Shown here piece after piece: positions 3,001 to 50,800 of a stretch of 64,000 nt of DNA. The DNA lies in the NCBI GenBank assembly GCA_033439295.1, contig JAVTLE010000004.1, positions 1,860,012 to 1,924,011 on the forward strand. Direction: 5' to 3'. The first letter of the stretch is position 1, and every line of letters begins with the position of its first letter. The position numbers and the translations under genes are program-made. A model generated the notes under the pieces. It made no database searches and was not told the DNA's origin. It saw only the letters and a program-made list of their open reading frames with translations. The stretch is from Deuterostichococcus epilithicus. Its lineage: Eukaryota > Chlorophyta > Trebouxiophyceae > Prasiolales > Stichococcaceae.

Positions 3001-5438
3001 CAGTGTGCACGGCGTGCTGCCCTGGCGCTGATTATGTTGCTCGTCGTTTAGGCCGAATGCTGCAGCACCTGTCCATCTCTTCAACCCCGAGCAGGTCCTG
3101 GCACAGCAACGACTTCCGCAGCATCACGTTGTACGTGATCACTGCGCGTCCGGATACTTCAGTCGGCCGCAGGGTGACGCTTCCCACATTTATTGCATGC
3201 AGGTGGACGTGGGCCGCGTGTGGCTGACCTTCAGCTCCTGCCTGCTCGCCTTCGTGTTCGTTTTTGGTGCGCCGCCGGCGCCGCATCTCTGCGCTGGATC
3301 CCGCAGTGCCTGTGCTTGCTGCTGAACCCTACGCCCCCTGACGCTCACGAACCCTAAACTGAGTGCGTACCCACGTCAAAGGCAACGTCACGTCCTGCTG
3401 CACCGTGCCGAACACTCGCGTCGCATGGCGCAGGCAACAACATCCGGAACGTGTACGAGTCGGTCATCTTCCTGTTTGCGGTGCACCCCTTCGACGTGGG
3501 CGACGTCATCTTCCACAACGACAAGGACTGGTGCGCTGCGGCTGGAAAGGGGTTGGCTGGCATCGCCTCGTCGGCAGCTGCATCGCAAGTCTCGGTGCCC
3601 CCAGTCCGACGTCCAAGCAGCCGCGGGTTTTGCGCGCCCACCCCTTCGCCTACGTTGTGTAGCCCTATCGTGAGTACACGCCTGCCGCATCACCCGCCGC
3701 CCGTGGAAGGGGTTCAGGGTTCAGGGTTTCGACAAGCGGTGGTCACTCGCACACCTGAATACTTGTCACGAAAGTCCTTCATGCCTCAAATAGGCATACA
3801 GCCGCTATGGGTGTACGCCTGCCGGCAAAGCCTCACTGTGCATATCTTGTTTCCGGTGCTGTGGCCGCGTGCTGACGGCGGCGGCCACAAACTGCAGGTG
3901 TTGCGTTGAGGAGATCGGGCTGTTGAACACGGTGGTCGTGCGCTGGTCAGTGTCCACCAGCCAGGCTCCGGACGACTTGCCCACGCGACTTGTCCGCACG
4001 ATTTGTCCACATGAGATTACCGTCCGCATTTCCTGCCGTGCCTGCTGATGCGCGTGCGCCCGTGCTGCCTTCCGCCGCTGCCGCCCAGGTGCGAGGTCGA
4101 GCGCACCGGGCTGTGCTGACGACGGTCGTGCGCCGCAGGGACGGCGTCAAGCTGTGGCTGCCCAACGCACGGCTGGCGGCGGAGCCGCTGCCCAACGTCA
4201 GCCGCTCGGAGAAGCGATGGGAGGGATTCAAGGTGCGCTTGCTGACGCGCGCGTGTTCGCGAGTGTAAGCTACCAGATACGGGGGTGCGTGCTGAGGCCT
4301 CTCCTGTATCTCAGGCGGCCTGGGGCTGTACTGCCGGCGTTTCATATACCTGACTCCCGGGAATGACAAGCCCGCTGAAACCCATTGCGTCCGCATTGGT
4401 GCATGTTGGGAGGGCGAGCCACACTCTCTGCAAGGAAACCTGTCCTCAACAGGAGGACCAAATGCGATGTGAGTCCATCGCTGCCGATCAGGTGGCTGTG
4501 GACATTGCTACACCGCCAGCGGTCTTTGACGCCGTCAAGGCTGACCTTGAGGCGTTCTTCGCCGCCAACGCGGGCGAGTACAGCGGCCGGAGCCTGTGTG
4601 TCGCCAACTTTGCCGGCGACCCGCTCAAGTTCACGCTGTGAGGCGTTCGCACCCGGCTATGCATACCAGCGGCCTAGAACAAGGGTTTCAGAATGCCCTG
4701 CCTTGCCCTGGGGCTCTCTGAAAGCAGGAGGACTACATGCAATCCCCCTGCTGAATCTGTACTTCAACCGCAGGTGCGTGTGGTGGGAATACTCCCACCC
4801 TGGGGTGGAGCTGGGCCGCATGAGCCTCGCGCGCCATGCCCTGTATATGCGCGTCGCCGCCAAGCTGGGCTCCCTTCGCGTCGCCTACACCCTTCCGCCA
4901 TACCAGGTTTTCCATTGAACGCTGAATATCAGGTTTTCCATTGAGCGCCGAAACTGCACTTGCAATTGCATGGGGTGAACCGCCCATTCACGGCGCATAG
5001 ACGTCGCCTGCACCTGCCGCCCTGCCGGCCGCCCGCATCCTCAGCTGCGAACGTGCTGCAAGGCGGCACGCACACATCACAGCAGCCGAGCATGGCGCGC
5101 CCGCACACGCCATGCCTGCTGCAGGTTTCGGCAAGCGTGTGCAGCACGGCTGCTGTGCAGGCCTATGAACCTCGCTGCTGTGACGCTTCGTCGTTCTGGT
5201 TCGGCCTCCTTCAGGCTGCAGATCCTGGAGTCATCACGATTTCCCGCCGGCGTGTGTGCTCCCAGTCTGCACGTCGGCAGCACCTGTCTGGCTCCCTGTT
5301 CAAGAGGCGACCTTCGACTGTGCGTAGGGTATGGCGCAGCAATTCGGCGGGGCCAGCAGCAGCGCGCCGCTGCGGCCGCCCGGCGAGGGCGCAGATTTCA
5401 TGCCCGCCTTTGCCCAGAAGGCCGGCCTGGGCCTCTGA
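89..5438 (+). CDS. MscS-like mechanosensitive ion channel with EF-hand (5' partial)
   Basis: This is a membrane channel that gates ion flow on membrane tension; the N-terminus lies off the left edge. Exons recognised include 89-211, 528-623, 793-947, 1736-1873, about 2087-2203, 2458-2587, about 2843-2970, about 3203-3267, about 3435-3529, about 3900-3948, about 4138-4231, about 4493-4638, about 4772-4903 and 5331-5438 (TGA). The exon at 3435 encodes VYESVIFLFAVHPFDVGD, close to the pore-flanking signature of plant MSL proteins (FESIIFLFVMHPFDVGD). It follows the hydrophobic stretch SSCLLAFVFVFG. The exon at 2458 carries a complete EF-hand loop, DVDRDGKVSLHD, with ligands at 1, 3, 5 and 12. 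This layout resembles the EF-hand MscS channels of fungi (Msy type) as much as plant MSL10. The last exons match the MscS beta domain and a short Gly/Ser/Pro tail. Some middle exons (1000-1730, 1950-2090, 2970-3200) are not resolved. Family assignment is secure; localisation is not shown. Confidence 0.88.
4903..4955 (+). repeat. 27-bp tandem duplication over a splice donor
   Basis: The exon end and donor of the channel gene, reading CAGGTTTTCCATTGA, is repeated 27 bp downstream at about 4930 with one or two differences. This leaves two adjacent candidate donors. The upstream one closes the reading frame after LPPYQ. Confidence 0.85.
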
Positions 5439-5473
5439 TACCAGATGCGGGCTCTGATGCCGAACGGCTTTTC

Positions 5474-5540
5474 TCGAGCGCGCTGCTGCGGCCTGCTGGC
5501 TCCATGCCTGCCTTCGCGCAGAGGCCGGTCTGCCACACCT
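5474..5540 (+). repeat. decayed copy of the channel gene's terminal exon
   Basis: About 45 bp after the stop codon lies a diverged repeat of the terminal exon. In one frame it reads SSALLRPAGSMPAFAQ, against SSSAPLRPPGEGADFMPAFAQ in the real exon (5331-5438). It has a deletion of several codons and continues into unrelated residues. It sits in the 3' flank and is not needed for the gene. Confidence 0.75.
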
Positions 5541-5839
5541 GAAGTAGGCGCTGGTTCACATGTTTGCTGCCTATGCTGCAACCCTCCAAGTGAGGTGGTT
5601 GTTGTGTAGAATAGGCTGTTCGCGTGGCTCACTTGCAGATAGGTGTCATGATCCCGGCAAGTTCGCGTTCTGCAGCCTGTAAAAGCTGAATGGCCTGGAA
5701 CATCAATCAGGAAGCTTAAATTCCGTGATCCGAGATATTAGATAAACTTTGCCAGTGGCAACCCCCAGTTCATTCGCTGTCCGTCATTCGCTGAGACTGT
5801 CTAGAAAACTTTCCCGTCTGCTTGTCAACATGTGCAACA
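5541..5839. other. convergent 3' flank, channel and UTP5-like genes
   Basis: This is sequence between two converging genes after the repeat copy. No coding exon, RNA gene or repeat was recognised. Confidence 0.6.
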
Positions 5840-7421: not shown

Positions 7422-8662
7422 GGGAGCGGCTTCGCCTCAAAACTTGGCCCGTCTGGCCAGAAAAATGAGCCCACCGGCACGAGAGCGCCCCTCTGCTGCG
7501 ACGCCCTCCTTCTTTGACGAGTCTGTTGCGGCCGAGCAGTTCTGACGCTGGAGCGGCGCAGCTGTGCGGTGCCCGGCAAGAGCCCCTCTGGGGCTGCACG
7601 CTCGCCAGCCGCCGGCCACCGGCCGCCAGCCGCCAGATGTGCCGTGCGGGCGCTGAGCTGCAGCTGCTGCTCTGAGCCGAACCCAAATGCTAAACTTTCA
7701 GGTGCTACGCGCTGGTCTAATGGGTGTGAGGGCGCCTGCAGTCGGAGAGTTGACTGCTGTCGGTGAGCGCCGCTCAAGGATGTGGACCTGCCACTCTTGC
7801 GCGCATGTAAATGCACCGGACGATTTAACGAGTTCAAATGGCTGTATTGATCACGCAGACAACGAAGCTTGTCGTGAAGACGCAAGTTCGGGTACCGGCT
7901 GCGAGTAGCAGATTGCTGGTCACGAACTTGAAACGCGCAGGGGTGCGACCCAGAGGTGTAGTTATAGCAATCGTTCGAAAAGGGAGCCAAGAGACCCCGG
8001 TGAGTGTGCGAGTATCGACATGTGCAAGTTTGCCCGTGCAGCGGCGTTTTGCGTTCGGCCGGCTGCAGGAAGCATCACATATGCTTCCTGCAAAAACAAT
8101 CTCGCGACGCCCCTATGGCCACATTATACAATACAAAGTCTGTGGCGACTTGCAAGGAGACACTGAGGACTGAGAAGCCTTTGCAGCGTTGCAGTGCGAC
8201 TCGCGAAGTTGAAAAGCAGCCACTCATCGTTCACCCCGCAATAAACTATTTCCAGCCCACAGCCGGGCAGGTACCTGCTCTGGGCCTGAGCTCGGCGTTC
8301 CTCATTTACAGGTGATAACGCGCAGCGTCGATGCACTGGACATCTGCACCTCGTTTGCCTTCCGCGCCGGTGAAGTGTGACTCATAACTCCGCCAATGAC
8401 TGCGATTTGCGCCTACGCTGTGGGGACCCTGAAGTGTAGGCTCGCGCAGCCAACCGGCTCAGCACCAGCTGCAAGCAGTTCAGCACCAAGCGCGCCGGTG
8501 GCAGTTTGCAAGCGTCTGCCTGAACAAGGACTCGCCGGCGGACCTGCCTGCAAGTGGCAGCAGCAGCAGCAGCAACAGCCTGCGTAGCCTCCGTCTGAGG
8601 GGCGGCGGCGGCGGCTGCGCGGCCGGCGGAGCGGCGTCTGCGGCGGGCAGCGGCAGGGCGGC
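7422..8662. promoter_or_regulatory. divergent intergenic region of UTP5-like and SPT4 genes
   Basis: About 1.24 kb separates two divergently transcribed starts, so it probably holds both promoters. No TATA box or WD40-coding exon was recognised. It contains a perfect inverted repeat at 8064-8092. Open frames here (for example 7316-7990 on the minus strand) have arginine/serine-rich shadow composition. Confidence 0.5.
8064..8092. repeat. perfect 12-bp inverted repeat (hairpin)
   Basis: TGCAGGAAGCAT and ATGCTTCCTGCA flank the 5-nt loop CACAT. It could form a DNA or RNA hairpin or be a dimeric binding site. It lies about 570 bp upstream of the SPT4 start. Confidence 0.85.
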
Positions 8663-9630
8663 GTGTCGGCCGCCATGCAGGCGGAGGTGCCTCGCGAGTT
8701 TGGCAAGAACCTGCGCGCATGCGTGTGCTGCAAATTGGTGAAGACCTACGACCAGGTGGGCGGCGGGCGGACTCCATCGCTGGGGGTGGACGTGTGCATC
8801 GCATGCTGTGTGTACGCCACACGCTGGCTGCTGCCAAGCCAGTCGGAAGCGCACCGCACACCCGTCCTGTTGCGATTTGTGTCACAATTGGATGGCCGGG
8901 TGCAGCGGTGCGCTGCGCGTTTGACGCCAGGCTGCGGAGTCCTCCGCCTCCTCGAGGAGGTCGAGTAGTGCAGTCAGGGCATCCGCTGCAATTGAAAGCC
9001 ACCTGCAGCGTCGTGCTCCTCAGAACCACCCGCAAGTGCGTGCCACTGCCAAGATCCATGCGGAGCGCATGGCACCACCCCTGACACCCCCTGCCTGCAG
9101 TTTCTCACCAGCGGCTGCGAGAACTGCGGCTTCTTCGGCATGGAGGGCGACCGGGAGCGGGTCTCCGACTGCACCACGCCCAACTTCCAGTCGCTGCTCA
9201 CCGTCATGGACCCGACCACCTCCTGGACCGCCAAATGGCAACACCTCGGTGGGCAGAACAAACTGGTCCAGTTCGTTCGCTTCCCGCTGTCGTTCGAGAG
9301 CGGACACTATACGATGTCAGACAAGCCGACCAATCTGCACGCCCAAATGGCAGCAATATGACCCTGCTCTGACTACCATCAGGGCCAGCAGGCGGGAGGG
9401 CGGCACAAGCCGCAGAGTACAGACGACCTGCACAAGGATGTACAGTGTGCCGCCCTCGGCGGGCATCGCTCAAACTGCTCAATCTCCTGCCCTAACGCAC
9501 GCCAACTTTTTACCTCTGAGCAGGCAAAAAGGCGGCGGGTGCCTACGCGCTGGCAACACAGGGCGACCCGCCGCAGTATGTGGAGGACCTCATGGAAGAC
9601 CACGGCGTCGCGCCGCCGCGGCGGCGCTGA
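8663..9630 (+). CDS. SPT4: transcription elongation factor SPT4
   Basis: Three exons (8663-8755, 9101-9248, 9524-9630) join in phase to give 115 aa, the usual SPT4 length. Exon 1 encodes LRACVCCKLVKTYDQ and exon 2 SGCENCGFF, which supply the four cysteines (CxxC...CxxC) of the N-terminal zinc finger. Exon 2 continues with SDCTTPNFQSLLTVMDP and SWTAKWQHL, the conserved core. Exon 3 gives GAYALATQGDPP and ends PPRRR, like the family's basic C-terminus. SPT4 binds the NGN domain of SPT5 to form DSIF, which keeps RNA polymerase II processive. The start was chosen because it is the first ATG directly before the zinc finger, and it gives family length. Identification is very secure. Confidence 0.95.
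9327..9362 (+). repeat. decayed copy of the SPT4 exon 2 end inside intron 2
   Basis: This segment repeats about 37 nt of the end of exon 2 (9212-9248). CCGACCA...GCCAAATGGCAACA in the exon corresponds to CCGACCA...CCCAAATGGCAGCA here, with a small gap that shifts the frame. A stop follows at once. Confidence 0.65.
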
Positions 9631-10592
9631 CGCACACCGGCAGGAACAGTAGGAGGTACGGCAACAGAAGCTTCACACGCTGCTCGCGCTGCTGGCGCAC
9701 CGAGCAGTGATCAGATGTGGAGGATTCGGCGCGGCAGCGCCATTGGCTCGGTGGCGGCAGCGGCCTGCTGCCGCAGTCAGCAGTACCTGCCGCAGGGGAC
9801 CTCGCATTATATGCCGGCGCTGAACCTCGAACGGAGACCTGACCCACATCGGCAAGGTGGATCAGCTTGCCGCTGCCACGCTGCTGGCCGTGGCGACAGA
9901 GGAGTTGCTTGTGCAACAGATCGCGCCCGGCAGCAGCATGGAGCGCTGCTGCTGCTTGCAAGCGGGGGCACCTTCACAGCGTCAGGCACAGCGGACGTTT
10001 CGCTGCTCCCTTCAGGAGAAGGCAGTGCAACGTCTGCTGGCTGCCCACTGTGGCAGAGCACGGCTGATTTCTGCATCAGCCAAGCCCTTACCAAGCAGTG
10101 GCACATCTGCGGCATACATGAACGGTGAGAAGAGCAGCAGCTCGGGAGGAGTTGCCATTTCGAACGATGCTGTAGTCCAGAAGGCTCGTGCAGCAATACA
10201 GCCGCTGCTCAGGACTGTGCTCGTTCGAGGGAGTATCGAGTGCAAGATTGAATCGACGTGCAACACCTTCTCCACATCCTCTCCTTGTGCATGAACTGTC
10301 CGATACGCAAGCGCAACAACCACCCACAACAGTGCAATCCGATACATGATGTACACCCAATTCCTTGTTCAAGCGGCAAATCCACGGACATGCAATGCAG
10401 ACAAAGCGGCACCCATGCAGCATGGTAGCTTCCGGCACACAATTCCAATGCGCCAGCTGAGTGGGGCGTCTCACCAATAACACGTTCCTGTAACACTCTA
10501 TGAGGATCCTAAATGACGAGACGAGACTCCCAACAGCAAAACCTCGAAGCTGGCTCGCCGTGCCATTGCCACCATCTCAGGTGCCGCATCCC
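9631..10592. other. convergent 3' flank of SPT4 and FAD oxidoreductase genes
   Basis: About 960 bp lies between two converging gene ends. No known gene was recognised. On the minus strand 10012-10356 is an open frame of 114 codons. Its first 20 or so residues (MYRIALLWVVVALAYRTVHA) look like a signal peptide, but nothing else supports it as a gene. Confidence 0.45.
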
Positions 10593-12752
10593 TCATCCCC
10601 GGATAACCTCTGCTGCGGCGACCGCCGGCTGCGAAAGGCCGCTGCTGTTGCTGGTGCCGGCGCCCCCATCGCTGCCGCCGTTGCCGCCGCCCTGCATCTT
10701 TGCCGTGAGCCAGTAGCGCACGGCGCGCAGCAGCAGGCCCGGTGAAAACATGGCCTCCGGCCCGCTGACCATGTGAAACACCTGCACGGAACGATCGAAG
10801 GTTTTGGGCGATGGCCCCTGCTACCTTTCGAAGATCCCAGAGTGCGTGCTGTGGTGCACAATTGCTCCTCGAATCTCGAAGCTGGGTACTTCAGGGACAG
10901 GCTCGACGCCGCAAACCACCTTCCAGTAGGGCCAGCAGCACCACCACATCGTCGGGCGACATCCTGAGTATCTTGGGGCTCTTCTTAAATGCATGTCTCG
11001 GATTATTCATTACTGAAGCGGAAGACCCAGCTCCCAGCAGGCCAGCAGCAGCACTGGGTCGTCTGCCGACACTTCTTGAGGTGCTGGTAGTAGGCTTCCA
11101 ACAGAAGCATCAGCAGTCCAAACGTTTGCAACCCGAGACCCACCTTCCAGAACGTCAGCAGCACCACCGGGTCGTCCGCCGCCACCTCTTTCAGGTACTG
11201 GAAATAGCCTTCCACAAGCTTCTTGGGCAGCGGCACCGCGACGTCTGCCTTGGGCGCGCCGCCCGCCATCCGCCGCAGGTCCTCGCCTGCATCAAAGCTT
11301 CAAGGGCTCATTGTCCAGGCTGAAGGGCTACCACCCTCCTCTCATGCCGCTGGTCGTCGGCCAAAGCATCAGAGAGGGCGAGCCTGTACCAACCAGGCAA
11401 GTGCCAGCTGTATCTGATCACCCAGCACGCTTGTGGCCTACTGCCATCTTGTCGCCTCAGGATTGACAATGACTTCAAATAGTCATGGTGGAGTGGTATG
11501 TAGGTGAATGGGGTATTAGTGAGGCTGCACCGCATGTCTTCACTTCAACATACGTGCGTGCCTGTGGCCAGCGTCCAGGGGAAGTCGAGCACCGCGGGCA
11601 GCTGGCGATGGAACTCGCGCGGCAGGCCACCCAACGCCCGCCGCCGCTGCACGACGCCGCTGCCGGCGGGCTTCAGCCGCTTGCGCAGCGTGTCGCGCAG
11701 CTGCATCGCCTGCAGGATGCCCACGGTCATGCCCTGCGATGCCAGAAGGGAGGTCGTCACTCGGGTCTGTCGGCCGACAAGTCACCAGAGCTTACAACAT
11801 CTTTGTCGCGATGTTAGGAGCCCCTGCGGCGCATGCCCATGTATCAGAGCCTCAGGGCGCCACACCAAAGCAGTACCGGCATGACTTGCCTGGCTTCAAC
11901 GTTGGTGCCGCTGCGCACCGATACAGCTTGCAAATGCATCGGCGGCTGCCATGCTAGACCAATCTCGCCATCTGGAGATGCAGGAAATGTGCGCCCAGCG
12001 GCTGCCCAAATTGTGAGCCACTGCGGCTCACCTGACCGTAGACGGGGTTGAAGGCGGCCACGGCATCGCCAATGGCGCACAGGCCGTCTGGCAGCTCGAC
12101 CTGCAGTACACAACAGTCCGCCTCATGAGGTGTCACTGCCATCACACAACGCCCCACGGTCAGGCATGTTCCAATGCAGCCACGTTTCAATGCAGCCAAA
12201 TTTGACGTGAGCACCGCGTCAGCCTGAGCAGGGCTGGACACGGTTTGAACTCAGCTCACGAAGTCAATGGAAACAAGGAGGCACCTCTTCGTACTTGCGC
12301 CTGAAGTTGTCCGTTCGCAGGTCTGCGCCGGCAAGGCAAGGCTCCGTCAATACTATTCGACAGCGAGGGGGATGTCACGGTGGGTGTGCAGGCTGCAATG
12401 TGCTGGCGCCTGTGACCGAAGCTCCAGGCGAGTCCGGCCTGCTGCGCCACGGTGAGGTTCGACTGCGCCAGGGACCAGTGTCGCACAGCCAGGGGCTGTA
12501 GGGCTGCCCTGCCACAGCGCGTTGGCTGCGCCGGGCGAGGGCCTCCTGGCCAGGGAAGCAAGCGGCCGGTGGGGCAGGGGCGCACAGCGCATGACGGGCG
12601 TCAGCGGCGTGGCGTCCCTGAGCTTGTTGTACACGTCCGGCGTCGGCAATGACTCCGCAAAGGCCAGCAGGCCAGCGTGGTCCGCCGGCGGGTGGTCGCC
12701 ATTGTAGCCGGTCATAATGACCTGCAGCAGAGAATGGACGTGTGTGACTTCG

Positions 12753-12789
<37 letters not shown>

Positions 12790-21912: not shown

Positions 21913-21962
<50 letters not shown>

Positions 21963-32063: not shown

Positions 32064-32440
32064 GCTTGACACGTCGGCTGAATACGCTAGGAGCAACTTC
32101 AGGCCGATCGCTTCCCTCCCTGCAAGACTCTTAGGCCAGCAACGCAATTCACACAGATCCCTTGACCACACTTCGCAGAATCAAGGTCGGGACTCGGCTG
32201 CGCGAATGTGTGTTCCTGCTGATTGTATTGACAATTCGCGTCTGAGCATGCAGAAAGCGAGTGCGAGCTGGCACGAGCTCGCCTGCTGTACGACAAAGAC
32301 CTGCCTTGTGATGATGCCGCAGTTTGCGTTCGCAATTCCATTAGAAAATCCCTCTACAGAGCCATACACCTAGTGCAGCTGCAGTCGTTGGCAATCTTCC
32401 GAGTGTCCAAGCACCTTCGCAGATCCCGAGTGCTGCCACC
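32064..32440. promoter_or_regulatory. divergent promoter region, cyclase and ADP-ribosylglycohydrolase
   Basis: Only 377 bp separate two divergent start codons, which suggests a shared or bidirectional promoter. No specific element was recognised. Confidence 0.5.
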
Positions 32441-35866: not shown

Positions 35867-38800
35867 TCACAGCGGCGGCAGGCGGTACTCGGTCAGCTCG
35901 CCCCAGCTCGGGCCTACGCGCAGCTTGACGGGCATCGGCAGCGATCTACCGGGCGTCCCGCCCGGCCCCGACGGCAGCACCATTGGCAGAGCCTCCTCCT
36001 GTGTGTCAGTGGAACAGGGTTTGAAGAGGATCTTCAGAAATGCCAAGCGGACCGCAGTGTTCACCTTCTCCAGCCACATGAGCCCAGCTGCTACACGAAC
36101 GGGCTGCAGCTGCTGGGGCCTGCTGGCACTGGCCGCAGGCGCCGTTTAAAGCAGCTGACAAAAGTGGCAAGGCATCAGAGCAAGGGCTTATGATTGTGTA
36201 GCCCAGATATTTGTACCTTCAATCCAAGAACGATGCGCACCTCCATGATGCGCTTGACAAGACGCGCCGCGTGCGGCAACACATCCTCCCGCGCCTCGAA
36301 CACGAGCTCGTCGTGCACCTGCACATAAGGAGGGATTCATAATGGTTCTGCAGGTCAGGCCAGCAGGGTGATCAGGCGTGGCTGTCAGCTGTTTCACCTC
36401 CAGCAGCTGGAGGGGCCGGCACTCGGCGCCGGCGCCGATTACGCTGCGAGAGGGTGTGTTTCCCAGGCAGGATCACCACAACTAACCCGTGACTTGTTCT
36501 GGGAGTTCGGTCAGGCAGAACAGTAAGGAGGCACGCTCGCTTCGACGCAATGCAGGGCGTTTGAGAGTCTGGGGCAGCAGGCCGCGGCGCGCTGACCATG
36601 TGCACGATGCGGCAGGTGGCGGGCGGCAGCTGCGTGCGCAGCGCCCGCTGCAGCAGCACCATCGCTGTCTTCAGCTTGTCAGCGCCGGAGCCCTGGCACA
36701 CCGAGTTGATGGCGGCGCGCTCGTCCTTGGACCGCTTGCCTGCAGCAGCGCGAGTTTGCAGGGCGGTGGAGGTCGAAGGTGTTTGTGATCGGAACATCGG
36801 CGTCTGGGGGACAGAGTACCGGCAGCAAACTTGCGTGCGACTGCAGCCAATGTCCCTGTCCAGGAGTGGGGAACGCAACAAGCAGTTGCACAGCCCGCTG
36901 GCTGCGATGAGCTGCCTGCAAGGCAACTTTTGCGCTGTGACGCAAGACAATCAGATCGGATGGCGAGCAGGTCCAGCAAGGCCGGACAGGCTTCCTTGAC
37001 GGCCGCACCCGAGTCGGCGGATGTGAGGTTGGGGAAGTAGTGGCGCCGCCCGCCGAGGGTGCGGACCCAGGCGGTGCGGCGGCCCTCCGCCAGCAGCGCC
37101 TCCCGCCACCGCCTGATGCCGGGCACCGCCGCCAGGAAGGCGTCCGACCGACGCTCCGCCTCGCGCCGCGTGCACTGCGCAGCAATGCCGGGGGCGGGGT
37201 GTGCACGAGGATGCGCTGGTGTTCGATTTGGCAGTACGGCTGCCAGCTGTTTGTGAGAAAAAGGCAGCAACCTGAGGCAGCAACCGGAGAACTCCTGGAG
37301 CCTGGCCATGCATCAGCCACCTGCATGTCCTTGGCGAGCCTGCCGGCGCCCATGCCGAACAGCAAGCCATACGACATCGTCTTGGCGTGTTCCCGCTGCT
37401 CCGGCTGAACCTGCAGCATCACATGAGCATAGTTCTGAAAGACACTTGACGCAGAGCAGGCCTGCGGCCTGACAGTAGGTGCAGTGCAGCGCGAGACCCA
37501 GAGGGCCTGCACGGCCGTGCGACAGCACGAGGCCGGGGGATGCGGGCCGGTGACCTTGAGAGTTGCTGCAAAACGCAAGTGCGGCATGGCTGACAGCCGA
37601 GCACCGCGTGTTCAGGGCTTGCGCCGCGGCACCTGGCTGAGCGGCGTGCCGAGCCACACAGAGGCCAGCTGCGAGAAGGGGTCCTGCCCCGCGTCTGACA
37701 GCAGCCGCCACATGTTCTCCTCGCGCGCCAGGAACGTCATGATGCGCAGCTGCGCGAGGAAGGACACACCCGCTACATCAGCTACACCCTCCATCCTTCG
37801 TCAGGGCAGTCTTGCTTGGCGCTCAGCGTACTGTCCGAGGCATGCCACAGCAGCAGCACAGCAGTGCAGCAGTGCAGCTTCGATGGACAACCACATGGCG
37901 ACCAGAGGGTGGACGGCCATGGACGGTCAGCAAAGTGCTGCAAACGTGGAATCGGCAACTGCTGGTGGATGTCCGCACCTCCATCTGCGACCAGTCGGCC
38001 GACAGCAGCAGCCAGCCGAGTGGCGCCACAAACACCGACCTGCACGGTGCACAGATGTCTGGGCGTCATAGTCATAAACCACATACACCACCTCATGCAC
38101 CGTTTGCTGGGCAGGTCTGGGCACGGGTTGCAGGGGCAGTTCCTCGGCACATACCCGGGCATCTGGCAGGTGGGAGGGTCGCGCAGTGGCAGGAGAGGGT
38201 CGCAGCGCGGCGCCGCATGCGCCAAGGCAGTGGCCATGCAAACGATGCTTGTGCTCCCCACCTCAGGTTTAAATCCTCAACCCACCTCAGGTTGGCCTCG
38301 TGGTCGCGGTGCGTCACAGCGCTGCGGTCTGACAGCGGCGTGACCGCCTGCGTGAGCGGCACGCTGAAGGCGCGCGGGCGAGGCATGCACTGCAGGTTCA
38401 GCTCGTCCATGGCGAAGCGCCCGGTGCTGGTCATCGTCTGGTTGAAGCGCGTCTGCAGCCGCCGCAGCACCCGCTGCGAGAAGCCGACCGCCTGCATTCG
38501 GCGGCACATGCGGGGTGGTGTTCCAAACAATTACATGTGTGCATGGTGCCCCTGCCGAAGCTGCTTGCACCTCGAGAAACGTGTCAGCTCTTTCCATTGA
38601 AGGCGACAATCGAGCCCCAGTTGAGCACTGCCTGCAGATTGCTCGACGTCTCAGCAGCAACCACGAACACCCGAGCGTCGGCCGGTGGTGCCGCCACCAA
38701 CCAATGCAAGTTTCTCAGGTCGAAGCGCACGGAAAGCTTGGGCAAGAGTGACAGCGCAGCTTCTGCTTGCTCATACCCTGCCAACGGGCGAGGGCAGGCT

Positions 38801-41800
38801 GCCCAGCGCCTGCGAGTTGAGGCGCTGGCTGGGGGAGTGCGCCGGCGTCGCGTCCGCCGCCGCAGTGTCCACCTGCTTGGTCAGGTCCTGCGCACATTGC
38901 ACGCCCGTGTTTGCTCAGAGTTTGCACGCCCGTGTTTGCTCAGGGGTTGCACCAGATGAAGGCGGACACAATTTGAAAGAGGGTATGAACGGTGAACATG
39001 CCGCGGCACGCGGCCCGCCAGTGGTCCGTTGGCAGTTCGAACCGTCTTTGCCAGCGCCATGTCTGCAGCAGGGCAGGGCTGCTGCGGCTTTCGTGCGCCG
39101 CGTGTGTGACCAGCAGCCCATGGTCGTCGTCACGTGCCAGCACTGGTGCGCCCCGCGGCAGGGGGCGCACCTCGATGAAGCCGCTCAGCAGCTTTTCGAT
39201 CTTGCGGTGCTCCCACACCAGGCGTGGCGCGGCGGTGCGCCGGTCGGCAGGGTCCTCCGCCTCCATGAGCTCCTCCAGGGCCTCCGCCTGCAGCGTGTGC
39301 AAGACTGGGCTGATGCAGAACGACAAGTTGTTGTCAGGGGTGCAGTGCTGCTGGTGCACAGCATGAAACTCTAATGTCTCAGCCTCCATTGGCTGCTGCA
39401 GGGCCTCCGTCTGGGGGTGAAGCACAGCTGCAGCAGAATGTGCTGTGGGTGCAGCACTCGTGTGTGCACATTCACTTGTGATCGTGCAGAAGCATACGAC
39501 TTCTCCCCACATGCCTGGCAGAATAACACCATGAGCTCCTCACCTTGGTGGACCAATCGCCAGACTTGTTCCGGTTTGCAGACGGCGGCGGCGGCAGCGC
39601 CAGGTGCACAAACAGCAGGTCGTGGCAGTCGCCGACGTTGCCCAGGCTAAATTTGCGGAAGGGTTTGGGGTTTCCGGCATCCGCAGCAATGGCCTCCGCC
39701 GCCTCCTGCAGCTCCGCCATTCGGCGTTCCAGCGGCGGCCTGCATGCAGATGAATGCGGCACAATGAGGCGGCACGATGCAGCGGCAAGGCATAACGACA
39801 GATTCGAGTTATGATCTTTCACACCTTCGCAATGGGCAAATTCTTACAACCCCGGGGCAGCCGCCTCCAGCCGCATCCTGCTCAGCCGCCAATGTCACTG
39901 GGGAACGATGCTGTTCAGAGGTATATGCTCATGTGCTCAATGCCAGGAATGCACGGGGGCACACTGCCCACATGCTGGGCCCGCCAGACTGAAAGCGCCC
40001 TGTGCATGCATGCCGCAGCCTGGCGCTGCCACAGCTGGCGCAGCCACAGCTTGCACACCACATCTGCCAGCACACCAGGAACGCTGCAGTCCGCGTGCCC
40101 GCTTCGTCGCGGTTGCTGGCATTGAGACAAGGGCAGTGGATACCGGCGCAGGACGCACCTCTGGCGGGCCAGGGCAGAGGGCGAGGCGGCGATGCCGTCG
40201 GCCTCCATGTCCGCTATCACCCGTACCACCGGCATCTCGATGCGCGCCAGCGGCTCCAGCAGCTGCTCCGTCTGCGTGGGCATGGACAGGCAACACATTC
40301 CGGCGAGTTCTCACGAGCAGGAGGCCAGCCCGGCACCGCCAAGGCTGTGCCTGCCGGCCGGCGGACTCGCCTGCTGCAAACCTGGTCCGCACCGCAGCGG
40401 CTGGACAGCGGGCGGGCCTGGTCGACAGCGCGTCCAGGACTGTCCTCATGCAGCAGGGCCTTTGCATGTCCGATCAAGTGATCCATGCTTGGACCACTCG
40501 GTCAGAAGGTCTAAGTCATGCGGCCCACCTTGAGTTAGCACCCCACCTCGAGCAGCGGGCGCAGGTAGGCATAGGCAGCCAGCGCCTGCAGTGCGGCCCT
40601 GGCGGCGGCGTTGACGTCCGTGCGCTGGACGCCCGCCGGCAGCCGCCCCCGCCAGTCGGAGCATAGCGGCGCGGCGGCGGCCACCGCAGCGTCCCGCCCC
40701 ACCCGCGCCTCCAGCAGCTGCCCCAGGCTGTACGCGTGCTTCAGGAACTTCGGCCGCGTGCTGTCACCCAGCTGCGCGGCAGACGCGTGCACCCGCCGTC
40801 GGGAGACCGAATGTCTCACAGGTGGTGCAGGAAGCGGGCTGGCACTGAGTCACATGGCAAGCAGATCACAAGCGAGCTATTCTAACATGCAACTTTCAAA
40901 CTCGACTGCGCTGCGGCATGCAGCCGTGACACTCTCGACTGCAAGGCGGCAGGGCAATGAGCGACCTGCCGCAGAGCTGTCGAATTCATCCGACGGCCAA
41001 AGTGTGAAGGCCAGCTAAAGCCCTGACAGGTGCTGCGACCTGGGCCTGCTATCTGCCAGCCAACGGACACATGCTTGTCCAGCGCTGGCAATGCGTGCGG
41101 CGGTGCAAATGGCGGGACCAGGGTCTGGCGAGGCGGCAATGGGCTGCTCATTGCACATGTCATACCCCAGCAGAAGCCGCCGCAGCAGCCAGCCAGCGGG
41201 CACGACCGTGAATCACCGTGTCGGTGCTGCCGGGCTTGTGCAGCCAGGCCGCGATGCGCACGTCGACCAGGGGGTCCCCCAGTTCCAGCCAGCCGCGGTG
41301 GCGCCTGCTCCGCCGCAGCGCCTGCAGCTGCGACTTGACATCCCACGNCACCAGAGGGGGGAGCAGATTGGGTGTGATCGAATATATAAGAAACAGCACC
41401 TAGTGGATGCGCAAGAGCGCGGCTGTGCTGGGATATGCGAGACAGCAAGCATGATATGGCTGAGTGGTTTAGTGCCCTTCGGCCAAGGCGCAGCTGTGGC
41501 AGCCAGCTTGCTGCAAGGCCCTGATCTCTACAAGTGAGCCTTGGATTGCTGCTTGTATGACTCTCTCGCATGCTCCCCAGACAGTGGCAAAAGGGCACAC
41601 CTTCTCAGCCGCAGGGCTGCGCAGGATGGCCGCCACCCGCTCGCGCCAGTCATTCCCGCTGTCCACAGGCGAGGCGCCGGCGCCGCCGCTGCCACCGGCT
41701 GCGCCTGCAGCCGTGCTACCGCCAGCCGTGCCCGCGCCGACAGGCTCCAGCACGGACAGCGGCAGGAAGTAGACTGCGGCCGCGTCCCAGGCCACCGCAA

Positions 41801-44800
41801 TGCCCCTGAGCGAGTGCTTGTCGGCAGCGAGCTCTGCACGAGCTTCCACCCAGAAGAGGGGCGAGTCAGGATTGGTGCGCGGGGAAGCTGCTTCTGTGTC
41901 TGCTCGCGCTGAGCACAGCACGGCACTGCTGTCAGAGCTTGCACATGCAGGGAGCCTCGTCAGCAGCAGAGAAGATCAATTTGCGACATGCGAGCCGGCC
42001 AAAGCGAGCCGGCTGCGGACCTGCGGCAGTGGCGACAACACCCGGCATGGGCAGCAGCAGGTTGGCCGGCGGCTCCGGTTTGGGCGGCACCGCCGGCGGG
42101 ACCGGCACCAGGCAGAAGCCAAAGCGTGATGCGGCGCCCCACGCCGTGCAGAATGCGCCCAGCTGCCCTCGCTGCACCACCACCGAGCCCTGCATGCGGA
42201 TGATTGATTCGTCTGCTGACCTGTGCCTTCTGACGCACAATGGAGGACGGTTGACCTGCAATATGCAGCTGCTAACATCGCCGGCTGCCTCGAAGCCGTG
42301 TCTGTTTACTGAGGCGGAGTCGGCTCCATGTCAGTCGCGGGGGTTCTATCCAGCTTCACGGGACCAGGTGCAGGACGCAGCTGGAGTCGGGTCAGGCAGT
42401 CAGCCATGCCTCTGCAGGGAGGACCTCCACGGCCAGCGCCGCGGGCGGCGATGCACGTGGCACGCAGCTGGGCGGTATGCGCGCGCGGGGCGCCGGCAGC
42501 GCCGGCTCGGGCTGCTCTGACGCCTGCGCCAGGTTGCCGGCGACCGCCATGTTGCCGATCTCCTCGAGGTACTTCCCTGCGGCAGCGGATTACCAAAGCA
42601 TCTGAGAACCCTTGTGTCCAGGCAGTGATCCTCAGACGATCGGAGTGACTCGGCCGGCCAAGGACAGAGCGTGACCCTCATGCTGCCAGATGAGCCGCTG
42701 CAAACTCGCAGGTCTGGAGGGTGCACACTCAGCCCCCTGCGGGCGTCACAGCATCCTGCTTCTGTTGCGTATCGTTGCGGCAGAGCGGCCAGCCTGCGGG
42801 GGGGACCTGCCACCTCCGGCTGGTGCAGCGAGCAAGTTCGTGCAGGGTCCCAGCCACCAGAGGTGACGTGTGCAAGAGAAGAGCATACTGGAGGCGGCCG
42901 CCTGATTGGCCTGCTCATCGGCGCGCTGCGCCAGCAGTTCGTGCGCCGCCTTCCAGATCTTGCGCGCCTGCATCTGCTCGTTGCCGTAGCTCTTCTTGCC
43001 CGCGCCTGCACGCAGGCACGAAGCGTGACTGCTGCACATTGCATGCTGCCGGCTTCAGCATGTAGAGACGTCCACACCTGCTGCTGTTGTTGGGGGCAGC
43101 TAGTGGATGCACAACGAGTATCTGTTAAGGCTGGCACTCTGGCGAGCACTTCTGGCGACACCAGGCTGACAGGCAGCTGGGGCACTCGGCTGATGCGCAC
43201 CTTCCTTCAAGATATTGGCGAGATCCTCCGGTGATGTCTTAGCGATACCCTCCGGCGACCGGATGCCCGCCATGAACAGCAGCCGCGCCTGCGTTGCCGC
43301 CGGCACCGATGTCACCGGAAGTCAACTAGCAGCTGGCCATCAGCCCGGGCACAGGGGGCTCGGCTGCACAAACCCAGCAGGCAACGGCCGGACACCTGCT
43401 ACATACGGCATGACGCAGCATGGAGCGGAGCTCCTTCCATGCGAGGCCATGCACGAGTTCCCGTGTCACTGGCACTGCCGCACTTGCCTTGGCGCCCTTA
43501 ACGCCCTTGACCTCCGTCAGCGCCACAATCTCCGCCCGGCATCCCCTGAACACCCGCGCCTGCAAGTGGGGGTGCAAGCAGGAGGCTGAATCGCCAAGCA
43601 CGCGCGAGGAGAATATGCTAGATTCAGGGTTCAGAGGGCGACAGCGCACACTCTCGGCAGTGTCTCTGCCGGATCCAGGGGCTCCGCCGCGGCAGCCGAC
43701 GGATGGAAGATCGCATGCCGCTGGTACTTGCAGGGCGCCAGGAGCGCCGGCCGCTCCAAGCAAACAGCTAGACGACTGGCACCACTTGCTGTCAGCACCT
43801 GAAACCCATCAGTTGCCAGCCCCAAGCCCCAACAACGCGCCTGGAACGTTGACAGCATGGCCTGCAGGCCCTCGTAGCCCATGCGCTCGCAGAAGGAGAC
43901 GACCATGGCGGCAAAGTGGCCGGAGCGATCCTGCAGCGCCTCCACCTGGCTCCGCGTCAGCTTGAAGCGCTCCACACAGGTGTCAACCGGAACCTGCGCA
44001 ACATACAGAGACTTTAGGAATGTGCTCGGCAGCTCGATGCTTCCCGCATTGCCTTCAGCGCCTCCACCTGCGACCCCGGTCGGCTTGTCAGGCACTGCGC
44101 TGCAGGGATTTCTTTGTGTCCTCAGAACCTCCAAATGTGAAAGTTCTGTGCGCCAATGCAGCGAGTCCGCCTGGCTTTGCGTCAAGTTGACGCACTGCAC
44201 GCACGAGTCTGCAAGCACCAGCGGTTGTGTCGGAAGCATGCCATCAGAACCCTCAAAATGGAAAGCACGTGTCACTCTGTGCTATGCTGCAGCGCCTCCA
44301 CCGCGGCATTCCAGCTTGATTTGCTCCAAGCAGGCGTGTTCCGACACCTGCGGCGCTGCATGACAACTTTGAACCTTGATGGAGTGGCGGTTTGTGCCAG
44401 TGGCCTCTCTCAGAGGTGTGGTGCCGAATCCTAGACGCAGGACTTGACCTGGACCCTGGCCACGTCACCCGGGGCGGTCGTCTGCGGTAGCCCTGCGCAG
44501 GCCTGACTGCCACGCCCTAAGGCGCTGAATGTGCATTCCTGGCTGTTCCACATCGTTAGCCCGAACGGCATGTATAACATAGCACAGCACAGCAGCGGTA
44601 GCGCAGCAGAGCACGCCCAGGCAGTAAGATGGGCCGCCGGGTGACAACGTGCCTCCTGTATGAGGTCCAGCAGCACCAGGGCGGCGTAGAAGCGGCGGCA
44701 CACGCGCTCCGACTCCGGATCTGGCTTGGCGGTCCTCCCAAAGCGCCGGTTTTGCAGGAAGCCCAGGTTGACGCCCACCAGTTCCCGCACCCTGGCCTGG

Positions 44801-47800
44801 GCGCCCTGCTGAGATCAGAGCTTGCGGGTCAGGGTTTGGGACAGGGTCTGATGGCAGAACGAGAACTGGCAACCGCGTCAGCACTGGCGCGCAGCACGGG
44901 TGCCATGTGCACGGCTGCTGTTTGGGCATCTGGCCAGCACTCTTGCTGATTATGTCAGCCCTCTTGCTGAGACTGGGCCTCCTGCTTGCTCTGCCGACAG
45001 CACGTATGGACAACAGGTCCTCACACAGGCGGCGACAAGCCAGCGGCGGTAGACGAACCCTCGAATGTGTGTGTGACGCATGCAGCAAGCACGCACCGCA
45101 AGGCTGCCCATGATGCTGTCCATGCGCGTCCAGTCGACCTTGGACGCCTGGCCGCGCTGCCCGACGTTGAATGCCTCTCGAACCTCGGTCACCAGGTACA
45201 TCGCGTGCAGCTCGCACTCGGAGTTGTAGGCCTTCCGCGCCGCATCCAGGTCGCGGGCCAGCAGCAGCGCGTCGGCGGGGCCCAGCCCCGAGGCCACCGC
45301 CGCCTTGCCCAGCGTGGTCGCCTCCCACCTGTGGAGGCACACATGATGACATGTGTCAGGGATTTGAAGCGTGATCTGAATCTGACAGAGCATGCATCAG
45401 CGCAGGAGCGCAGGCGCATCGGTGTCAGCTTAGCTGCCATGCGGATTGGGAGTGATTTGACTCGTGCCAGGCCGACAGCAGGAGCCAGGCTGGGCACTGA
45501 TCGGAGGCGTAATGCTCGGCAGCAAAGTTTCGCTGCTTCGCAGCAGAGCCAGACGTCCTGGATCAGTGCCAAGCACCCCCGGGCGCGGGGTGTGCCCGGC
45601 CAGGCAGCTCGGAGTGCACTGCTGCGGCAGCGATGCGCGGCAGGGAATGCGGAAGCTGGGGATGCACGCACGTGCCGGCGCTGCCGCGAGTGGAGTCCTT
45701 GTCCTGCTTCCACCGGATGAGCTTCTGCTCGCACAGCCACGCCTGCGCCTTCTGCGCCGAGCCGATCACCAGCTGCTTGTTGTCCTGCGCGATGAGCAGA
45801 AGCGGCGCACGAGGTGCGTCAGCACACTGCTGACAACTTCAGGGCGCTCAGCTGGCGATTGGTAGACAGGCCACATGGGTAATGACGATTAGTTGTGGCG
45901 CATGCTGCAGAGCGCATGCCGCAAGTGCTGCTGCAAGTGCTGTTGCAGCGGCGCACTTCCAGGTCGTGCGTGCGTCTTGATGCTTCGGCAGTGCTCCCTG
46001 CACCCGTGGCGCAGGCTCGGCAAGACCAGCAAGGCAGGCCCCAGGCGGCGGCCGCAGATGGTGCGGGTGGCACAGGCGGCTCACCTGCTCGTGGTTGATG
46101 GCGGCCAGTAGGGTGCACTTGATGTAGCGCTTGATGGCATCGGGACGCGCCGCCGAGCCATTGGCGACCACCTCCAGCATCGCGCGCCGCATGCCGGCCC
46201 GCGCGTCCGCCAGGCAGCTGGTCACCGCCCGAGCGTCCGCCTGGTGTGGAAGAGAGAGGTGTAGCTGACGGCAGGGTCAACGACAGCGGGCAGACTGACG
46301 GAAGGACCCTGGGCTGGTGCCGGTGGCAGCGGCAACCGTGCATGGAAGTGAGTGCGTGCTGCCGAGGTGCAGCAACGTGTGGATTGCGGCAAGAGGAGTG
46401 CGGCCTGTCCCCAGACAGTTTCAGGAGGAGCTGGCATGCAGGCCTCCCCCTTCAACCATGTGTGACGGCCAGCAGCACCTCTGCCTGGGATCCCACTTGC
46501 CGCTGCACCGTATGGAGGCCTTGCAGTGCTCGCTGCCCGGCGGTGTAGCCCTAGCGTATCGAAAATTCGTCCCTGGCCCCTGAAGCAGGGGTCACCCGCA
46601 GCAGAGGGTTGGGACACTTGCAAGGGCTACCTGCCAGGGGTTTGAAGCCACCTGCATGAGGGTGAGCAGGAGGTCGCGGGTGCGAGCGTCCTTGGTTGCC
46701 AGCAGGATGGCCTCGCCGGCGTCATCGATGCCGGCGCGCCCCGCGCGCCCCGCCATCTGCTGGTACTGCGTCGAGTCCAGCGGCTCGCTGCGGAGGCCGA
46801 CATAGTGGTGCCTGCCGGCCCGGCGGGTCACAACGTCAAGTCAAGATGCACGGCGCTGGTTGAAGAAGGAACCTCTGCAGTCTCAAGCAGCTGTAAGAGA
46901 TCCTACCGAATGCTTCCCTTTCCTTTCCGCGGCTGTGCCACTCAGCTCCATGCATGCGCGTGCAGGGCATATGCACATGAGCAACCGGTTCGTCCGGGTC
47001 TGCTCTGCGACAATGCCCACCGGAAGATGACGCGGCGGGCTGGAAGGTTGACGCCAGCGGCAAGGCCCGACGTCGCTGTCAGCACCGACACCGCACCGCA
47101 CTTAAAGGCGGTGACCACCAGCTCCTTCTCCTCGTCGGACAGAGCTGCATAGCGCGCCTAAGGTTTAGTAAAGCAGTGCAAATGCTGGACAAAGTCTGCG
47201 ATGTTTGCCGATGCATCGGAAGGCCGTCGCCATCAGCTCCATCTCCTGCATTGGACAGGCGTGCAAACGGCACAGATATCGAAAATCAATCAGGTAATAG
47301 AAAACCGAGTTAGCGACGGGCAAGGTTCGAGGCTGGGTGCCGTCACCACCGGCTCCACCTCCTCCGCCGGGTCTGCTTCCAGTCATATCAGGCCGACATG
47401 CTGCCAGGGCGTGGTGTCGACTGGCAGTCAAGGCTGACCAGGGTATCAGGCACATGTAGCACTGAGTGCCGTCATCACCGCCATCTTCCCCTACTCCTCC
47501 AGAGACAACTTTAGAGCCAGAATAGGTGAACGAAAAGGACGCTCCATGTTCCTGACAGGCATACAGGTTTCAGGTCCACTCACCGGAGTGATGGAAGGCG
47601 ACACCCTTGGCCATGACGCGGGCGAGCTGCGCGTTGCCGCCCTGCAGCCGTCCCAGCTCCGCCACAATGTCGGCTCGGCTGCGCGGCGCCACCCGCCCCC
47701 GCGTTTTCAGCCGCTCCGGCACGTTGATGGTGCTGGCCACGAACTCCGCGTTCTTGACGCACTCCTGCGGCAAGCAAAGCGAAGCAGACCACAGCAATGA

Positions 47801-50800
47801 AATGATCATCTTTGCAGAGCCAGGACCGCTGCCCCTGGGCGCTGAGCTCAGATCCACATCCTGCACAGCAAATTTTGCCGCAACTTCCGCATCTGCAATT
47901 TTTCCAGGACCAAACCCTGGATCCGGCATCACAGCCAAGAGCACAGGTAGGAAGAAGGGCAGCCGGGTAGGCCTTGTTACTGGAGGCGCAGGACATGCGG
48001 ACTGAGTTGCCGTCATCAAGACCAGTCGAGAGGAGGAACACAGGGGATGCGGGGAAGCACCAGCTTGGAGGCGCAGAACATGAGGACGGAGTTGCCCTCG
48101 TCGATGGTCTCGGAGCACAGCTGCGCAACATGGTCCGGGTCGCGCCCCTTGAAGTAGGGCACATCCGGCAGCCGCCGCACCTCCTCCATGCGCTCGTTGC
48201 ACAGCGACCGCCCAATCTGCTTGACGCAAGGAGACGAGCTTGACTCAGTGAACAAAGCACTGCATCGACACTCGACCTGCCCTCCGCGCCGCAACTCCCC
48301 CAAACGCTTGCGCTGCACAGCGGCCCCTTGCGCTTTGCGGCACTGAAGCAGCCACAAAAAGCATCACGACGGCGGAGCAGTCCTGGGTTGCAGGCACAGC
48401 GGAAAGACCGGACCCGAACCAGCCTTGGGAACCGCAGTAAAATTCGAACTTCAAGACACATGCAGAAATTACAATCCGAACGGTGACGCAACAGTCGATG
48501 CCTGGGGATGGTCCCTGCAAAGTGTTGCCAGGTCATGGCCCGTGCACTGGCGCCGTGTACTGCTGCCGCCGCCATGCGAAAGCAGCCATGCCGATTCAGC
48601 AGTGACCAGGATGCGCCAGGTGGTGGTGAACGATGCTGCCAGTTGATGTCACATGAGAGTCTGTTGACCAGTTCTCGAGTCAGTGATCTGGATCAATGTG
48701 TAGCAAGACCCATCAGCCACCAGGGTCAGGTGAACAGCGGCATGGCGCGCCAGGCGGGGGTTCACAACGCCGCCAGTCGCCACCACGACAGTTGTGGAAC
48801 CAACTCGAGACAGTGTTCCGTATCAGTCGAGCTGAGAGGGGGTGGTCACCAGGATGCGGCTGTCCAGCGGCACCGGGCGCCAGGTGGTGATGTACAGCGT
48901 GGCGTCCAGCCAGCGCGCCATGTCCGCCACGTTGGGGATTGTCGCGCTCATGGCCACGATCTGCGAGCAGGCAGGCAGGCGGGTGTGGCGACCATGTCTG
49001 TGGGCTTCTTCGACCTGGACCCACATCCATGTCTGGGGCTGGCGCTAGCTCGTGGCACCTTGAGTTTTGGCGGTATGAGTCATTGGACTGCTCGTTTTGA
49101 GAATGCACCCCCGGCCATGCACCAACCTCAAACCACGGTCCTGACTCAGCCAACAGAGTCCGCAAGGCGGCCATGCTGGGTGACTGGGTCAGCTTGCAGG
49201 AGGCACCTTGTTGGTGTCTCGCTGGCGGCCGGCAGGGCAACCTCACGCACCTGCAGCTGGCCGTCAAAGCCGAGCGGCGGCTCCACGCCGTGCTCGCCAG
49301 CGGCAGCCGCGGCAGAGGTGGCCACCGCAAAGCGCAGCTTGGTCAGCAGCAGCTCCAGCAGGTAGCCCCTGTCGTCGTCACCCACCTGCATTGTGCGGTC
49401 CCGCGGTGAACGCGCATCATGGTGGTTGCTACAGCGTCTGGCGGCTGCAGAACCTCGAGCGAAACGGGCTGCACCTGGGAGGCAGCTGGGAGGCACATGG
49501 AAGCCTCAGGCAAGCTCTGCGGCCGGAGCAGGAATCAGAGGGCATTGGGCTGAGGGCCCCAGAAATGCTTTGTCGGTGCCATGCCGCGATGGCGCAGGGG
49601 CTCGCTCGCATGCGCTGAAGTTTGACGGCAGAGCATGGCGGGACGGGAGTTGGAGGCGCACCATGTGCAGTTCGTCAACGACGACGCAGGAGAAGGTGGC
49701 CAGCCTCCCCTCCTCCAGCAGCCGGTTCGCGAGCGTGTTGGCCTTCTCGATGGTGGCCACCACGCAGCCCGTGCCCTCCGGGATGTCCCACCCCATGGCG
49801 GCGCCGCCCCACAGCTGCAGCACGCCCCTGCGCAGCGGCTTCAGCAGCGCCTCCATGTGCAGTGCCTGCGGCAGCCGGCACGCGGCGGCGGGGTCAGCAG
49901 TGCTGTGCCGGAGCCGTGCTGAATAAGGACGCGTGCGTCCAGCCGGCGCATGGGCACACGTCCCGCAAGCCACACAGGTAAGCCTCACGAGATCTGGGAT
50001 GCCCCCGGAGCCCGCCAACAGCTCAGCTGAGCACACACTGAGCAAGCTGCAGGTCTTGCCCGTGGCTTTCGAGGCAGCAAGCACTGCGGAAGTTCTTCCT
50101 TCCACAAGCGCCGCGGCAAAGGTACTGAACTCCTACTCCTTGTACGACACATGAAACGACAGCCAAGCTTTAGCAAGACTAAAATCGCTCCAGCAAACTG
50201 CCCTGGAATCCGAAACAAGCATTCCAACCCACCTTCTCCTCGCACAGCGCCCGGAAGGGCAGCACCAGCAGCACGGGGCGCTCCCATTCGACGATGGCGC
50301 GCAGCATGCACACCTCCGCGACCAGGGACTTGCCGCCGCTTGTGGGCGCGCAGTACACCAGGTTGCCGAAGCCCACGATGCCAGAGTCTAACAGGCACTC
50401 CGCCTGCACCAGGGGCACGGACAGAAAGGGGGTTGTCTTTGGTGACTTTGTCGCGCCCAGCGCCGGGCCTGGCATGAGCAGCGGCGGCGCCTCGGCTGCA
50501 CGAGCAAGCTGCAAAGCACAGCCGCACATGCTGGCGTGTGCCGAACGACAGCCTCGCACACATGCAGAACATCTGGAGCCGTTGAGGAAAGTGAAGTTGC
50601 CATGAACGAAAGCAGGCGGGGAAGCGCGCCTGCCACTCCTACAGGCGGAAGTCGTCGCCTTTTCAGGCAGAGTAAATTGGATGTGAACGGAAGAAGGCGG
50701 GGAAGCGCGCCTGCCACTCGTACAGGCGGAAGTCGTCGCCCTTCCAGGCGTCCGGCACAAGCTTGGCCGGCAGGTACTCCGTGATGCGCCGCTGCTGCGG

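Follow-up and report, generated by a model that had tools for sequence, protein, structure and literature searches.

Decayed same-strand copies of exon edges in introns of the green alga Deuterostichococcus epilithicus

The 64-kb window analysed here (positions 1860012–1924011 of contig JAVTLE010000004.1; G+C 0.631) lies within the 46.8 Mb assembly, in 21 contigs, of the green alga Deuterostichococcus epilithicus, and carries genes for a channel, SPT4, a FAD oxidoreductase, GT2, a cyclase and POLQ. Introns and flanks at these genes contain diverged copies of the edges of adjacent exons, often with the splice site included. We confirm that such copies, which an original prediction from the window alone had described, are real and occur well above chance, both in the window and in further loci sampled from the genome. 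They lie in direct orientation, with a preferred spacing and edge polarity; they are decayed, and their homology to the parent exon mostly halts near the exon–intron junction. Pfam matches support SPT4, the cyclase, GT2, the FAD-type oxidoreductase and the DEAD helicase and DNA polymerase A domains of POLQ. Two channel pieces, among eight proteins searched, had no Pfam match, so the name 'channel' rests on the label given in the original prediction.

Exon-edge copies in the window

The parent exons and their copies, with identities as percentages, are as follows.

5361–5438, plus strand: channel gene, end of the terminal exon; decayed copy at 5477–5553 in the 3′ flank (spacing 116, gapped score 28, 81%)
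9212–9243, plus strand: SPT4, exon 3′ edge; possible, marginal copy at 9326–9355 (score 14.5, p 0.014, best of four SPT4 tests)
11136–11214, minus strand: FAD oxidoreductase, exon 3′ edge; copies in the downstream intron at 11023–11100 (GT lost) and 10916–10968
17683–17709, minus strand: GT2, exon stretch; short copy at 17777–17804 in the upstream intron (27 aligned bases, 93%)
30423–30491, minus strand: cyclase, exon 3′ edge; downstream copies at 30295–30361 (76%) and 30175–30216 (85%)
34700–34840, strand unassigned: intron-only 74-bp tandem duplication, a rare comparison class
36398–36443, minus strand: POLQ, short exon region (family at 36386); weaker copy at 36085–36148 (79%, spacing 301, p 0.0005)
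39255–39290, minus strand: POLQ, exon 5′ edge; upstream copy at 39378–39413 (83%, spacing 123, p 0.0005)
43925–43998, minus strand: POLQ, exon 5′ edge; upstream copies at 44052–44087, 44157–44223 and 44281–44352 (72–83%)
47105–47500, minus strand: POLQ ladder, exon edge 47105–47149 with three related copies at about 47220, 47333 and 47462
48061–48216, minus strand: POLQ exon, 3′ edge copied at 47957–48017 (76%)
48173–48209, minus strand: 5′ edge of the same POLQ exon (48061–48216), copied at 48287–48325 (84%, p 0.001)
48613–48895, minus strand: POLQ, whole-unit tandem duplication of about 134 bp, 48616–48749/48750–48879, reaching an exon 3′ edge (127 columns over spacing 134, 70%)
48877–48895, minus strand: POLQ, third short match, paired with 48613
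50590–50749, minus strand: POLQ, 81-bp whole-unit tandem duplication of an exon 3′ edge and its GC donor, copy start 50671 (79 columns over 81, 86%)

Of the genes named beforehand, the channel, FAD oxidoreductase, cyclase and POLQ families held up, those of POLQ lying at 39255, 43925, 47105, 48044, 48173, 48750 and 50671, with a weaker one at 36386; a GT2 copy was found but is short (27 bases), and that of SPT4 is marginal (p 0.014). The channel pair scored 26.5 over 5361–5429 and 5477–5532 (p 0.0005 against shuffled flank). In the FAD oxidoreductase family the copies share 81% with the parent and 79% with each other, and in the cyclase family the more distant copy is the more similar to its parent. 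All segments of the POLQ ladder at 47105, 47220, 47333 and 47462 are related, four of the six segment pairs reaching p 0.001 and the others 0.013 and 0.021, and the POLQ exon at 48061–48216 has copies on both sides. The 81-bp POLQ unit had been taken as near-identical but is 86% identical, and its copy bears an in-frame stop. The exon that carries this unit ends LYEWQ at a GC donor, and the join of LYEWQ to AECLL is gap-free against polymerase theta chains. GC begins 34 of 760 predicted introns when the gene model permits it, a model-dependent count in which one POLQ case is supported by homology.

Excess, geometry and decay

Counts beyond the window were made on a 304-kb sample, about 0.65% of the genome, consisting of the window and 24 further 10-kb stretches, which carry L numbers here. 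The 812 exons are predictions of a hidden Markov gene finder whose training used this same DNA and no RNA evidence; homology backs the gene models in few genes only, and the boundary tests below depend on these exon predictions. The gene finder arrived at the donor consensus CAG/GTG and the acceptor consensus GCAG/G, with a median intron of 207 nt; its errors include the fusion of GT2 with the FAD gene and the prediction of some fossil copies as exons. Low-complexity segments were removed with entropy and period filters before counting, and the filters were loosened for later counts. One stretch, L019, holds a minisatellite-like array of units of about 72–78 bp in predicted non-coding sequence (8295–8966). 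This minisatellite and all pairs spaced less than 60 bp were excluded from the decay, rest-of-unit, junction-profile, flank, gap-to-exon and simulation-comparison sets and from the intron-only listing.

In the window, 11 exon–intron direct-repeat pairs scored at least 18, against a mean of 0.15 and a maximum of 1 in 40 intron shuffles. The 304 kb gave 47 such pairs, as compared with 0–1 in each of six intron shuffles and 0–1 in each of six whole-sequence shuffles. The original prediction had named shuffled sequence as its control and the wider genome as its comparison, and both bear it out: 46 exon–intron pairs at 80–420 bp touch 34 of the 812 predicted exons, and pairs are present in 13 of the 25 stretches and absent from 12, and so are not peculiar to the window. 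We use 'dense' for the 304-kb sample of this genome alone; by extrapolation from the 46 pairs, the genome would hold thousands of copies. An ungapped scan showed a strong surplus of direct repeats at short spacing, and gapped matches scoring at least 20 numbered 75 at 40–420 bp against 4 at 1000–1380 bp and 7 at 2000–2380 bp, bands of equal width. No inverted exon–intron pair scoring at least 15 was found under 400 bp in the 304 kb, and the window has no inverted repeat scoring at least 18 within 2 kb; the wider sample contains 32 inverted repeats scoring at least 18 under 1 kb, 23 of them in L019 and 5 in L003. Chance matches, similarity through codon bias or low complexity could be invoked for the weakest single case, SPT4, which is near chance level. 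For the set as a whole, chance is rejected by the shuffle controls; inverted orientation and distant bands are likewise far poorer in exon–intron matches, and we give this explanation a negligible probability.

The 24 rows on the upstream side of the parent exon match mainly its 5′ edge and the 19 on the downstream side mainly its 3′ edge, a polarity that is partly forced by geometry. The copy lies 36–90 nt from the exon in 29 of 43 rows and closer in 3; one row has a gap of 100 nt, and the 10 with at least 140 nt are mainly second or later copies. On the acceptor side the minimum gap is about 44 nt, setting aside two doubtful rows (gaps −11 and 6). Exon–intron spacing has a floor at about 80 bp, with 1 pair at 40–80 bp against 31 at 80–160 bp. 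Intron-only pairs are distributed differently, with 15 at 40–80 bp and 13 at 80–160 bp (Fisher p 1e-5), or 6 and 5 when L019 is left out (Fisher p 5e-4). At L016:1031–1813, one exon is flanked by four decayed copies, a pair of its 5′ part on the upstream side and a pair of its 3′ part on the downstream side.

Decay was assessed in 39 parent–copy pairs, drawn from 74 gapped pairs with a score of at least 18 and a spacing of at least 60 bp outside L019; in the other 35, both members were called exon or both were called intron. Exon–exon pairs entered counts only, and intron-only rows were classed by eye as copies of copies or arrays. Substitutions per site in the 39 pairs were 0.192 (codon position 1), 0.176 (position 2) and 0.245 (position 3); the alignments contain 54 gaps, and 5 of 603 codons are stops, against about 9.3 predicted if the copy took 85% of the differences at random. 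The copies thus decay in a roughly neutral-like manner and, as had been claimed, many are disabled, 29 of the 39 pairs carrying a stop or gap. Functional duplicate exons are rejected as a general explanation by this last count and by the weak codon-position pattern. Copy ages differ, again as claimed: the divergence classes below 0.1, 0.1–0.2, 0.2–0.3 and above hold 3, 17, 18 and 1 of the 39 pairs. The shortage of young copies, those less than 10% diverged, relative to the next class has p 0.003; one further pair, L004 9767/9894, is 95% identical but has two predicted exons as its members and is therefore not among the 39, and with it the young count is 4 of 40. Since recent copies are scarce, a steady continuing process is not shown, and the proposal that duplication is continuous in this genome finds no support in the 3 of 39 pairs that are under 10% diverged.

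The extent of homology

Whole-unit tandem duplication was simulated at 5–25% divergence per lineage, and gave a median unit coverage of 0.77–0.99 and a median intron overhang of 44–68 nt. In the 29 observed pairs spaced less than 165 bp, the medians in three identity classes were 0.51, 0.42 and 0.55 for coverage and 5, 2 and 9 nt for overhang; intron homology of at least 20 nt occurred in 3 of the 29, as compared with 78–100% of simulated pairs. The simulation took its indel rate from these local alignments themselves, a rate that may be too low for large indels. A junction-anchored profile sank to background by about +12 for donors (21 rows) and within some ten bases for acceptors (19 rows), the donor core being visible in the copies from about +1 to +10. 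Among acceptor-side copies, upstream intron homology was found in 0 of 17 (Fisher 0.49). Intron bases are present in some copies (14 nt in L005, 24 nt in L023); together with whole-unit duplication in POLQ, these indicate that the template was DNA or unspliced RNA.

Random placement of 40,000 units yielded 15,539 intron-only and 8,041 edge-straddling units. In the intron-only class detection fell from 0.82 at 15% divergence per lineage to 0.20 at 25%, and in the edge class from 0.98 to 0.57; by arithmetic, sequence-blind copying should therefore give about 1.6 detected intron-only pairs per edge pair at 15% and 0.7 at 25%. Outside L019, the ungapped scan found 14 intron-only pairs at spacings of at least 40 bp, of which 5 were at 80–160 bp, and 4 of these 5 are read from their coordinates as copies of copies. 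The gapped scan adds one intron-only pair at 119 bp (L024 4253/4372).

Mechanism and relation to known systems

The reading that we tentatively favour, at a probability somewhat below even, is short same-strand local copying of exon edges, followed by a splicing filter and then by decay, with a minority of whole-unit tandem duplications. Same-strand copying at the DNA level, for example by template switching in replication or repair, would place some 25–95 nt of exon edge about 80–160 bp away in the neighbouring intron, and some copies are complete tandem duplications with a unit of 80–134 bp. Splicing would then act as a filter, survivors being those that leave the working splice site intact and, on the acceptor side, the branch-point region too; such a filter would yield the spacing floor of about 80 bp and a minimum gap of about 36–44 nt. 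The acceptor gap of about 44 nt fits a need to keep the branch-point region, which would help to set the 80-bp floor. Surviving copies would lengthen the intron and then decay. In favour of this reading stand the excess of exon–intron pairs over shuffles, the lack of inverted pairs under 400 bp, the spacing contrast with intron-only pairs, the gap of 36–90 nt in most rows, the intron bases in some copies, the neutral-like decay and the collective homology of donor-side intron flanks (p ≤ 0.05 in 6 of 17, Fisher 3e-5). Four exon joins that omit copies align gap-free at the junction to PDB homologues, the match to GrpE being weak (expectation value, E, 0.001).

Several observations weigh against this favoured reading. 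Of 58 spaced pairs, 14 have some rest-of-unit homology at p ≤ 0.02 on either side, against an expectation of about 2, the 14 including several coding–coding pairs or chains of copies. Acceptor-side copies have no upstream intron homology (0 of 17). Intron-only pairs are clearly too few relative to the 31 edge pairs, and the favoured reading leaves this exon bias unexplained. Among the eight multi-copy families, 4 have a more distant copy that resembles the parent better than the nearest one does, 3 show the reverse and 1 is a tie, a pattern that does not fit a simple outward pushing of copies.

Ordinary neutral tandem duplication of whole units, in which the constrained exon half stays visible while the intron half decays twice as fast, would explain polarity, spacing, the visible donor core and decay. 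It has examples in the POLQ 81-bp (50590/50671), POLQ 134-bp (48616/48750) and L010 4704/4827 units, and the group homology of donor flanks and the 14 of 58 pairs speak for it. Nevertheless, the observed coverage of 0.42–0.55 and overhang of 2–9 nt are far below simulation, intron-only duplications at 80–160 bp are rare and acceptor flanks lack homology. The shortage of intron-only pairs makes neutral, sequence-blind, whole-unit duplication insufficient and, with the simulated overhang and coverage, rules against it as the sole explanation; we regard it as an unlikely account of the data. The original prediction of tandem duplication across the exon–intron border is favoured by the donor flanks, the 14 of 58 pairs and single whole-unit cases, and is not supported as a general rule (3 of 29 pairs against 78–100% simulated). 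A live rival, if quite an improbable one, is that the tandem duplications are old, their exonic half having been kept by conversion from the parent or by selection, for instance as a splicing decoy, while the intron half became saturated. Such maintenance accounts for both exon-bounded homology and the rarity of intron-only pairs. The L016 pair 2127/2247 is identical at 31 of 31 positions with a spacing of 120, and outside this tract only scattered similarity is seen by eye, although one flank test was nonetheless positive (score 13); two L005 copies are 93% alike over 44 nt, with spacers that have no visible similarity. Stops below expectation (5 against 9.3) favour maintenance, and there is weak clustering of mismatches (4 of 34 at p ≤ 0.05, Fisher 0.018), of the kind that conversion would leave. 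Conversion, however, predicts many low-divergence pairs, and only 3 of 39 are under 10%; the codon-position pattern shows little sign of coding constraint, and 29 of 39 pairs have a stop or gap.

RNA-templated repair, in which breaks in the adjacent intron are filled with copies of local transcripts, would produce sense-only, exon-biased copies such as those observed; the window encodes POLQ, and polymerase theta is able to reverse-transcribe. Exon–exon junctions are nevertheless at chance level, 2 of 38 copies matching the neighbouring exon edge at p ≤ 0.05, and some copies include intron bases. The junction count leads us to reject copies of spliced mRNA, and RNA-templated repair in general appears very improbable. 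Two further candidates were set aside on argument: haplotype mis-joining in the assembly, since decay of the copies extends to every codon position, and repair of breaks with long filled-in overhangs, since the used acceptor would lose its branch region. It is possible, if doubtful, that exon edges with their splice-site core are copied into neighbouring introns, or selectively retained there, by a process so far unrecognised, on the same strand only and at a stereotyped displacement of about 80–160 bp. If so, what is locally duplicated or maintained would be exons and not DNA in general. The exon bias, if it held up against a sister genome, would call for a new mechanism. The copies offer a dense natural record of exon–intron border duplication and of which duplications splicing lets survive; they bear on intron growth and on a possible step before intron gain, and could serve as a test of rules of splice-site choice.

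Gain of introns by the AGGT route, which the original prediction had raised, was rejected for three candidates. The candidates in L002, L004 and L014 all proved to be exon-start fossils once the flanking exons were joined and compared with GrpE (weak, E 0.001), a poly(A) polymerase and ERCC-6. A fourth pair of exon/intron against intron/exon, L012 9456/9536, is a predicted candidate; no new intron by this route was confirmed, three of three protein-compared candidates having failed. Introners were also rejected, on the basis of 2 introns: searching the 46.8 Mb genome at E ≤ 1 with two copy-rich POLQ introns of some 650 bp recovered nothing but the introns themselves.

Internal gene duplication with creation of introns has reportedly been described by Gao and Lynch in 2009, a study cited in PMC3443670. 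The present copies resemble it in being local direct duplications within genes that touch exons and introns; they differ in that homology is mostly confined to exon edge and splice core, that spacing is mostly 80–160 bp and that no new intron was confirmed. End joining by polymerase theta produces templated insertions, which are short copies of nearby sequence in both orientations. Here too there are short copies of adjacent sequence at short distance, but no inverted exon–intron copy within 400 bp. In the AGGT model, as the 2012 review PMC3443670 presents it from Hellsten 2011, direct repeats of exonic sequence lie near AG/GT and the new intron equals the repeat spacing; direct repeats of that kind occur here, whereas the three protein-checked candidates failed. 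PMC4974935 describes a tandem genomic duplication across an intron–exon border of the potato RdRp gene, including branch site and polypyrimidine tract, from which a new intron is spliced. The acceptor-side border is duplicated in our case as well, but 0 of 17 acceptor copies have upstream intron homology and the copies lie inside the old intron, in contrast to the potato gene (PMC4974935). In open-licence literature, at the level of titles and abstract openings, intron gain by tandem duplication is reported, but no such density in an alga.

Other repeats in the sample include a repeat pair with 187-bp spacing that occurs twice in one stretch (L015:1956–2186 and 9750–9983) and is probably a dispersed element, and an alanine-rich coding tandem repeat of about 114 bp (L024:5705–6221). 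The end of the window is about 26 kb from the end of its contig, and short telomere-like TTTAGGG/CCCTAAA stretches lie within predicted introns at window positions 225, 686, 958, 3352 and 55151.

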